Shown piece by piece: positions 45,320 through 46,971 of a DNA stretch of 64,000 bases (positions are counted from its first letter, which is position 1; every line of letters starts with the position of its first letter). The notes under the pieces were generated by a model. That model did no database searches. It was not told the origin of the DNA and saw nothing but the letters and a program-made list of their open reading frames with translations. Made by a program: the position numbers and the translations under genes. Source of the stretch: Dermacoccus abyssi (GTDB taxonomy: Bacteria; Actinomycetota; Actinomycetes; Actinomycetales; Dermatophilaceae); assembly GCF_003515945.1 (NCBI RefSeq), contig NZ_QWLM01000010.1, positions 1 through 64,000 on the forward strand, written 5' to 3'.

Positions 45320-46064
45320 AACCACCAAGACGCCGATCCCGGCCGCCACGTGCGTCCTCATCTCCGGCGGCTCGCGCGGCCTCGGCCTTGCCTTCGTCGA
45401 AGACGTGCTCGCCCAGGGCGCCAAGGTGGCCGCGTTCGCGCGCAGCGTCACGCCTGAGCTGCAGAAGCTCATGGACGAGCAGCCCGAGCGCGTCTACGTC
45501 GGCTCCGTCGACATCACCGACCCCAAGGCCGTCACCACGTTCATCAAGGACGCCTCCAAGGTGCTCGGCCCCATCGACGCGCTCGTCAACAACGCCGCCA
45601 TCGGGCAGGACTCGCTCCACCTCCACACGACGCCCGAGCGCATCGAAGACATCATCTCGACGAACCTCACCTCCACGCTGCTCGTGACGCGCGCCTTCAT
45701 GCGCCACGCCATGGCCAAGGTCGGCAAGGGGCGCATCGTCAACGTCACCAGCGTCTGTGCCCAGCGCGGCTACGCCGGCCTCGTCGCCTACTCCGCCACC
45801 AAGGGCGGCCTCGACGCCGCCACCCGCTCCCTCGCCCGCGAAATGCACGGACGCTTCCTCGTCAACTCGATCGCGCCCGGCTTCTTCGCCTCCGAAATGA
45901 GCTCCGTGCTCGGCACCGAACAGCTCTCCACCATCACCCGACGCACGCCCACCGGCCAGCTCGTCGAACCGGAGAACATCACGCCCACCCTGCGCATGCT
46001 GCTCTTCGAAGACACCAACATCAACGGCATGGTGCTGACGATCGACGGTGGCGGGAGCATCTGA
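45312..46064 (+). CDS. SDR family 3-oxoacyl-ACP reductase-like
   Basis: A 250-aa reductase with 'CVLISGGSRGLGLAFV' (NADP loop), 'LVNNAAIGQDSLHL', 'IVNVTSVCAQRGYAGLVAYSATKGG' (Ser-Tyr-Lys) and 'NGMVLTIDGGGSI'. It is FabG-like and may reduce a 3-oxoacyl group on the neighbouring ACP, or act on a sugar. Translationally coupled to the ligase. It ends just before the hairpin modules. Confidence 0.8.
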   Translation: MSETTKTPIPAATCVLISGGSRGLGLAFVEDVLAQGAKVAAFARSVTPELQKLMDEQPERVYVGSVDITDPKAVTTFIKDASKVLGPIDALVNNAAIGQDSLHLHTTPERIEDIISTNLTSTLLVTRAFMRHAMAKVGKGRIVNVTSVCAQRGYAGLVAYSATKGGLDAATRSLAREMHGRFLVNSIAPGFFASEMSSVLGTEQLSTITRRTPTGQLVEPENITPTLRMLLFEDTNINGMVLTIDGGGSI

Positions 46065-46074
46065 TCCGTCCCTA

Positions 46075-46150
46075 GCTGCGTCTTCCGGCGAATGACTTCA
46101 GGGCGCGAGCTCGCTCGCGCCCTGAAGTCATTCGCTCGGTGCGACACAGC
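46075..46150. repeat. Structured module 1: hairpin in repeated flanks
   Basis: Outer sequences GCTGCGTCTTCCGGCGA (46075-46091) and TCGCTCGGTGCGACACAGC (46132-46150) enclose a 21-bp perfect hairpin, arms 46088-46108 and 46115-46135, loop 6 nt (GCTCGC). The flanks recur around module 2, but the inner arm sequence is different. It could be a strong terminator for the ACP operon, or an RNA element. Confidence 0.6.
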
Positions 46151-46160
46151 GATTTCCCTT

Positions 46161-46236
46161 GCTGCATCTTCCGGCGACGGGCTTGACGCCACGAGCAAGC
46201 TCGCGACGTCAAGCCCGTCGCTCGGTGCGACACAGC
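46161..46236. repeat. Structured module 2: hairpin in repeated flanks
   Basis: Same outer sequences as module 1 (46161-46177, one base different; 46218-46236, identical) around another hairpin: arms 46174-46188 and 46207-46221 (15 bp perfect), continued by 6 more pairs with 2 mismatches, ending in a 2-nt centre. The arms have changed together, so base pairing, not sequence, has been kept. Confidence 0.6.
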
Positions 46237-46256
46237 TGCGGGCGCTCGACCTTCAC

Positions 46257-46301
46257 GCGGCATGTCCCACGGCTTCGCAAGCTCAGCCGGGGACATGCCG
46301 C
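46257..46301. repeat. Third hairpin
   Basis: Arms GCGGCATGTCCC and GGGACATGCCGC (12 bp perfect, 46257-46268 and 46290-46301) with an inner 5-bp stem (46270-46274 / 46285-46289). It lacks the repeated flanks of the two modules. The rest of the 46302-46488 stretch shows no gene. Confidence 0.55.
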
Positions 46302-46488
46302 GTTTCGGTCTCGCGGCGTCCACTTCCAGCGTTGTTGCGTTGGGACAAGAGGGCGCGGCTCGTTCGCGTGGCGGGGGAGCCGCCGCGGGCACGGTTGGTC
46401 TGCGTCGTGGGTACCGGCCTGTCTCGACGATCGAGGGTACTCATCTGAGACGCTGTGTTGAGGCTCGCTGTTGGGAAGGAACGGCACG

Positions 46489-46971
46489 GTGAACGCTGCT
46501 GATCTGCTGGCCGCCGCGGTGCGGGACGGGCAGCTCGAACGGTCGTCCGGGGTCTCGCCTCACGAGCACCCCCTCGCGGCGCGCAGCTACCTGTCCGACG
46601 GCACCGGGCTCGCGTGGCACGTTCCCTCCGCGCTGCGCAGCCACGGCACCTTCGTCCTCGACGCCGAAATCCCACGGCCCGTGCGTTCAACTCTCGTGCG
46701 GCGCTACGGCGTCGACGACCCCGACACCTTCGCCGAACGCTGGACCCGCGCAGAGGCTCTCGCCAAACTCGCCGACCTGCCCATCATCACCTGGCTCAGC
46801 CGCCACGGACTCACCGTGCCCGAACACGTCGGCGCACTGCGCGATGTCGGCGAGACCGACTGGAGCACCGAGCGGTTCGGCGACGTCATCGTGACCTTTG
46901 CCGTCACCGCACACGCTCAGCGGGCCGACACGAGCGAGGAGCGTTCTCCGGCTGTCGGTGGCACCGTCTAG
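46489..46971 (+). CDS. 4'-phosphopantetheinyl transferase-like protein
   Basis: A 160-aa protein starting with GTG after GGAAGGA. 'ERWTRAEALAKLADLPI' matches the W-x-K-E-A-x-x-K motif of phosphopantetheinyl transferases except that Lys before Glu is Ala, and 'FVLDAEIPRPVR' occupies the place of the usual GxDxE. It is shorter than typical (about 200-240 residues), lacking much of the first half. It may be a minimal or inactive relative that serves the ACP gene 2.5 kb upstream. A low-confidence assignment. Confidence 0.4.
   Translation: MNAADLLAAAVRDGQLERSSGVSPHEHPLAARSYLSDGTGLAWHVPSALRSHGTFVLDAEIPRPVRSTLVRRYGVDDPDTFAERWTRAEALAKLADLPIITWLSRHGLTVPEHVGALRDVGETDWSTERFGDVIVTFAVTAHAQRADTSEERSPAVGGTV

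Follow-up and report, generated by a model that had tools for sequence, protein, structure and literature searches.

The window analysed here is a stretch of 64,000 nucleotides from Dermacoccus abyssi (contig NZ_QWLM01000010.1, positions 1 to 64,000), in which a series of hairpins begins directly behind a gene that Pfam assigns to the short-chain dehydrogenases and whose stop codon occupies 46062..46064 on the plus strand. The first of these, unit A1 (46069..46150, plus strand), has the foot GCTGCGTCTTCCG / CGGTGCGACACAGC and inner arms that pair perfectly (46088-46110 and 46113-46135). It is followed head-to-tail by unit A2 (46155..46236, plus strand), which has the same foot and different arms. 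Next comes a plain hairpin, B (about 46243..46315, plus strand), which has arms of its own, is without the conserved foot, and was placed by arm complementarity and folding. A conserved tail with the consensus GTCCGCTTCCAGCGTGGT, here carrying two mismatches, closes the series (46318..46335, plus strand). Downstream lies an ORF of 166 aa (46471-46971), which has an ortholog in a congener and matched no family in Pfam or NCBIfam, so that its earlier description as PPTase-like finds no support.

An earlier note on this DNA had seen two tandem modules with near-identical flanks and differing arms that still pair, and both alignment and folding against shuffled sequences confirmed this. The 76-nt modules (46075-46150 and 46161-46236) differ by one base in their left 17 nt and are identical in their right 19 nt, and the 82-nt versions of units A1 and A2 share 79% identity. 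Unit A1 folds at -60.4 kcal/mol (z -10.8) and A2 at -48.5 (z -6.5), with none of 200 shuffles as good in either case. Taken with the adjoining foot, the arms are 23 nt long in both units and are 100% complementary in A1 and 91% complementary in A2. The third hairpin, given previously as 12 bp, is considerably larger, since B has 26-nt arms that are 81% complementary, with a folding z of -7.4. The loop motif CTCGCAAGCTCG or near variants of it (46190-46200 and 46271-46284 in the window, for example) recurs across hairpins with unrelated arms, and is also found in foot-less plain hairpins of the same genome. A search of the window region against Rfam gave microRNA models only, with scores far under their cut-offs. 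Inside the window alone, a search for the flanks gave no clear excess (10 matches versus 6.7 expected, and 2 versus 1.1), and the repeat family becomes visible solely at the scale of the genome.

To describe the family we built a covariance model from 15 seed units with their arms trimmed; A1 and A2, with E-values of 3e-12 and 2e-14, are both among the seeds, and L008, L015, L020, and one L003 row are excluded. In the seed alignment, 88.8% of cells are paired and the covariation score is 0.416, versus 0.144 after shuffling. The model gave 26 matches in the D. abyssi genome at E<=0.5, of which 25 pass E<=0.01, with E-values down to 4e-17. Two weak rows in or beside predicted ORFs (L055 and L056) were removed from the 26, leaving 24 units at 20 sites, of which 15 units are the seeds themselves. 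An exact two-sided pattern matched 13 times in this genome and its reversed control never. When up to 3 mismatches are allowed, the 17-nt flank matches 53 times and its reversed pattern 38 times, a recurrence above a high background. Reading the foot matches revealed a common design with other arms. The flank search across the genome had been named as a test in the earlier note, and the recurrence of the flanks with other arms makes a mobile REP-like element the best supported of the three readings suggested there.

The tail, searched with up to 3 mismatches, occurs at 18 places in the D. abyssi genome versus 4 for the control; 14 of the 18 lie directly behind an A unit and 1 behind a degenerate unit. 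By eye, the succession of A, plain hairpin B, and tail is present at 9 of the 20 sites, the window site included, and at five further sites a tail follows an A unit without B. Tandem arrangements comprise four head-to-tail cases and one inverted pair, which sits behind two convergent genes. A known Rfam RNA family was considered and rejected, as units matched none at the family gathering score in the 20 loci or in the window region; the sole match at the 20 loci lies elsewhere in L053. This is the L31-Actinobacteria leader RF03158, near the unit behind rho (L053 1105-1151, minus strand). Among the papers listed by literature searches, one of them made with the element's own letters, none was on such an element.

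The anatomy of the unit is well defined at its base and variable above it. The consensus reads GCNCYGTCTTC-arm-GTGCGACRGNGC, in which the foot is near-invariant and asymmetric, with CGTCTTC on the 5' side and GTGCGACA on the 3' side. Predicted folds place, in order, an outer stem (GCNC/GNGC), a C.A or T-A position, GTC/GAC, an internal loop of TT/TGC, and CCG/CGG, followed by a bulged T and then the variable arms. A combined alignment holds 49 units in 45 distinct rows; the core alignment omits L054, L070, L077, L080, L109, and one plus-strand match in L169. Across the 49 units, each of the CGTC columns is at least 90% conserved, TT follows CGTC with GTGC opposite, and the 3' side is GTGCGACA in most. 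In the canonical units that were read, 18 to 48 nt of arm sequence separate the two feet. Many loops in D. abyssi are 12-nt motifs, and in 15 of its 24 units the loop is CTCGC(A/G)(A/G)GCTCG or TTCGCAAGCTCA.

In the outer stem of the 49 units, 85.7% of cells are paired versus 73.0% in shuffled alignments, and the covariation score is 0.306 versus 0.114, a value reached by 0 of 500 shuffles. Two of the five covariation measures were not above the shuffles (pairs changed on both sides, 409/500; pair types, 224/500). The outer stem is a short covarying stem below the foot, and the arms may change provided they pair. GTC can pair with GAC in the predicted folds; because GTC/GAC hardly varies across the 49 units, this pairing is not demonstrated by covariation.

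In D. abyssi, most sites are close behind genes. At 15 of the 20 sites, a same-strand stop codon lies within 10 nt of the start of the unit; relative to the model start, the end of the stop falls at 14 of these anywhere from 1 nt upstream to 10 nt downstream, and at the fifteenth 10 nt upstream. Three more sites have a same-strand stop codon 65-110 nt upstream, one unit has no clear host gene, and one, half of which is duplicated, has a tRNA-Sec gene (L047 1611-1706, minus strand) 34 nt upstream. A family search with the 3' parts of the host genes identified, among others, adenylosuccinate synthetase, zinc dehydrogenase, EttA, IF-2, serine dehydratase, an Fe-S assembly protein, a chaperonin, a proB-like kinase, RNase J, Rho, and S-adenosylhomocysteine hydrolase. 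Another host is a TatB-like protein, by an NCBIfam match below the cut-off, and two scanned host genes matched no NCBIfam family.

One congener genome (G001) was compared and gave 13 covariance-model matches at E<=0.01. Orthologous gene ends were located there for four pairs by one comparison and for all 17 pieces of a joined query at 79-98% identity, some of the 17 being covered only partly. Visual inspection of 21 orthologous gene ends showed a unit at 5 of them and none at 13; at the remaining 3 it is degenerate or lies on the opposite strand. The window site itself measures 521 bp in D. abyssi versus 132 bp between the equivalent points in the congener. The family is multi-copy, with frequent head-to-tail tandems, and its units are only in part shared by the two congeners; absence of units from the congener could reflect loss there. 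A 13-nt repeat at 46037/46426 has a spacing of 389 bp, equal to the size difference at the window site; it is not significant and therefore is not used as evidence. Within the genus, target duplication was above the null at 0 of 26 loci. At L068, behind the chaperonin gene of the congener, hairpin B is succeeded by tandemly arrayed repeats, each of ~60 nt.

At four sites with a unit in both congeners, 31-35 of the 38 core positions agree, compared with 70-76% of four-fold sites and 48-68% of arm positions; the ahcY coding alignment in the four-fold-site comparison is ungapped and gives 71%, versus 90% in a separate comparison. Between different loci, arms agree on average at 44-54% of positions, with maxima of 67-90%, and the arms at shared sites fall within this between-locus range, although three of the four sites exceed its mean. 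Two different loci of the congener (L057 and L067) have almost identical arms, which is a sign of copying between loci. In D. abyssi, the left foot of L054 (G000:C4:84538-84617) reproduces the right foot exactly in reverse complement, producing a perfect palindrome, whereas its ortholog L109 in the congener has an ordinary left foot. We take this rewritten foot as a signature of template switching. A left foot of the L054 type is also present, without a hairpin, at L094. The previous inference that covariation of the arms points to selection on structure was too strong by itself, since template switching, with one arm as its source, can rewrite its partner; the asymmetric, mismatched foot, however, is kept in nearly all other copies, which argues for selection on the foot.

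We then considered the distribution of the units outside the genus. Few candidates were scored per genome, under strict filters, in the covariance-model searches of the bacterial family, where 10 of 149 genomes match at E<=0.01, and of the order, where 8 of 297 match at E<=0.001; the convincing three are D. abyssi, G001, and G005 in the former and D. abyssi, G001, and G185 in the latter. G005, a member of another genus in the same family, has a head-to-tail pair of units in which CCG/CGG of the foot has become CTG/CAG, a change on both sides. A relaxed pattern matched 89 of 396 genomes in the order, with 10 matches in D. abyssi, 9 in G185, and 6 in G200 (controls 0 for each), 4 in G001, and at most 3 in every other genome. 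In the phylum it matched 49 of 396 genomes, and D. abyssi alone exceeds 2. G185 and G200 belong to another bacterial family (f20), and as only 2 of its 18 sampled genomes have such counts, the distribution is patchy.

These two genomes contain 17 related units of the form GCCGCGTCTTC-arm-GTGCGACACGGC, with arms that vary and still pair, with tandem copies, and at several sites with a plain hairpin behind the unit. Head-to-tail arrays number three in G185, one in G200, and one in G005. Three G185/G200 sites have a solute-binding-protein gene on one side and a permease-like gene on the other, two of the permeases being below the Pfam cut-off, and several units are antisense to neighbouring ORFs. 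At L130 (G185:C63, ~1570-1680), three direct repeats of the type CCAAACCCTGGACTCGGTGAATTGGGGG stand after tandem units. A phage-borne element was also considered: two scans of viral contigs returned 3 and 4 stretches, none of which folds as a complete family unit, and these are taken as chance. A scan of genome contigs, in a collection that may omit records close to the genome of the window, returned three stretches with the exact two-sided pattern (L071, L072, and L073), of which only L072, from a Nocardiopsis MAG, folds like a unit, as a single copy with 22.3 bits.

Some of the units outside the genus are within genes. In G185, one unit lies in frame within galK, where the product has 64 residues (84-147) in place of the 11 found in 6tep; a second displayed alignment agrees, and the aligned galactokinases lack the stretch. 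Direct repeats of 12 bp are found there 153 bp (51 codons) apart. From the frame, the direct repeats, and the extra residues relative to homologs, we read this unit as an insertion, at one locus and by comparison with distant homologs. Two more units of G185, in tandem at a distance of 90 bp, are read in frame close to the end of a Y-polymerase-like ORF (L171, G185:C1:63563-63694), where their translation gives a repeated peptide; the ORF has no Pfam family and one NCBIfam match, below the cut-off. Among 12 G185/G200 stretches, 5 are flanked by direct repeats of 12-30 bp (null <=11, 8 shuffles each), and no flanking direct repeats were found in the other 7. Repeats of 30, 24, 19, and 16 bp may be local duplications around hairpins, since two or more of them form hairpins by themselves.

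Taken together, the element is most likely a dispersed palindrome of the REP/RPE kind that is often found at the 3' ends of mRNAs and whose arms turn over yet stay paired. We think it probable that the window locus is one site of a set of dispersed small palindromes in which the foot is near-invariant and the arms can change as long as they pair, and in which the following steps occur. Some activity would recognise the foot while the element is copied. Within the genus, copies behind stop codons would persist because, together with the plain hairpin that often follows, they serve as a 3'-end structure of the mRNA, in termination or protection, a role that would fit their location. Fast turnover of the arms may come about in part by template switching during replication, with one arm rewritten from the other and pairing kept. 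A bolder version, which we put forward tentatively and which may well prove wrong, is that of a mobile palindrome of Actinomycetota known by the shape and letters of its foot alone, the rest being free cargo rewritten by template switching, so that the element would go on folding and moving although nearly all of its sequence is replaced; some enzyme would move it, and it would have passed between bacterial families. The Y1 transposase family PF01797 is absent from the D. abyssi, G001, G005, and G185 genomes and present as a single copy in G200, with no unit beside it. That sole transposase (L172, G200:C16:102198-102530) adjoins tandem-repeated hairpins of its own, which are unrelated to the units. 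The favoured reading draws on the copy number, the covariation of the outer stem, the placement behind stop codons, the differences from the congener, the shared arms of L057 and L067, the galK locus, and L054. Against it stand the finding of no linked PF01797 transposase, the lack of target duplications in the genus and of flanking repeats at 7 of the 12 G185/G200 stretches, the near-invariance of GTC/GAC, the two covariation measures not above the shuffles, the dependence of the insertion on one locus and distant homologs, and possible loss in the congener.

An alternative that we consider unlikely, although it has a real chance of being correct, is that the units are lineage-specific terminators or 3'-end stabilisers, with A and B acting as a tandem terminator and the foot binding RNA polymerase or an RNA-binding protein, and that recombination spreads the copies on account of their usefulness, with no dedicated mobility. 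The proximity of a same-strand stop codon at 15 of 20 sites and the serial order of A, B, and tail at 9 of 20 agree with it, as do the three G185/G200 sites between solute-binding-protein and permease-like genes. PMC8355165 describes hairpin clusters near stop codons as terminators in which U-trails are unneeded. The in-frame unit in galK, the two in the Y-polymerase-like ORF, and the antisense orientation of several G185/G200 units are all at odds with such a role, and there is no U-tract behind the units that were read.

Another proposal, a folded single-strand recombination site like the integron attC, with matched boxes, an unpaired spacer, an extrahelical base, and a variable apical arm behind genes, is very improbable. 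The anatomy is indeed similar (GTC/GAC, a UU/UGC internal loop, CCG/CGG, a bulged U, and a variable top), and the units do stand behind stop codons, but the 20 D. abyssi sites are scattered behind housekeeping genes with no cassette array. The core letters of attC are RYYYAAC/GTTRRRY, and the conserved letters here differ from them. Finally, chance likeness among ordinary GC-rich terminator hairpins, for which plain hairpins do exist behind genes and the background of the 17-nt flank is high, is hardly credible and was rejected, being contradicted by the two-sided pattern (13 versus 0), the E-values down to 4e-17, and the tail beside units at 14 of 18 places.

It is informative to compare the dispersed palindrome that we favor with known repeat families. 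The CGTC-tagged REPs, which include dRS3 and Rickettsia RPE-4 and RPE-6, are described in Di Nocera et al. 2013 (PMC3733652) as having stems of 8-9 bp that start with a complementary A-T (first and second position), loops of 4-5, a CCA tail, unpaired CGTC, and dimers that are mostly head-to-head, with head-to-tail negligible; they had no known transposase in 2013. The main text of that paper does not contain the word Actinobacteria; for M. tuberculosis the paper notes REP-like sequences that carry no tag. Like these REPs, our units are small dispersed palindromes with CGTC at the 5' foot, and are near the 3' ends of genes and in some cases inside genes (15 of 20 sites; galK). A search for PF01797 found no transposase linked to the units. 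Unlike them, the units have arms that differ greatly in length and sequence (segments of 18-48 nt, with many 12-nt loops in D. abyssi), TT in place of an A-T start after CGTC, GTGCGACA on the 3' side of most units in place of a CCA tail, and a predominance of head-to-tail tandems. Because of these mismatches in stem length, stem start, tail, and dimer orientation, we do not file the units as CGTC-tagged REPs.

The same paper presents GTAG-tagged REPs with RAYT transposases as dispersed intergenic palindromes, often behind genes (PMC3733652). The present units resemble them in both respects but are without the GTAG tag, and the Y1 transposase is absent from four of the five genomes and unlinked in the fifth. 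Ordinary terminators are not known to have a conserved foot common to unrelated genes, whereas our units share one across unrelated genes. Clustering of hairpins close behind a stop codon is nonetheless a likeness to the tandem hairpin terminators without a U-tract in PMC8355165. Boxes at the foot, an unpaired spacer, and a variable apical arm are shared with integron attC sites (the subject of PMC2727003 and others), from which the units differ in lying outside cassette arrays and in their conserved letters. L054, where one side is rewritten from its partner, recalls the RNA hairpins shaped by template switching in PMC8794818, which concern a mutational process and not a family of elements.

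A dispersed palindrome is in itself a known kind of element, and what is new here is that little but the foot would be recognised, that the arms turn over, and that the spread over two bacterial families is patchy. In the REP families covered by PMC3733652, the stem sequence itself belongs to the family consensus; here conservation is nearly confined to the foot, and repeat finders that need copies to be alike would therefore miss the family. Such a family would reveal what portion of a hairpin is read by a copying activity, and to what extent covariation stems from template switching and not from selection. As a second kind of palindrome for which a search found no linked transposase, alongside the CGTC-tagged REPs, it makes the transposase question more testable.
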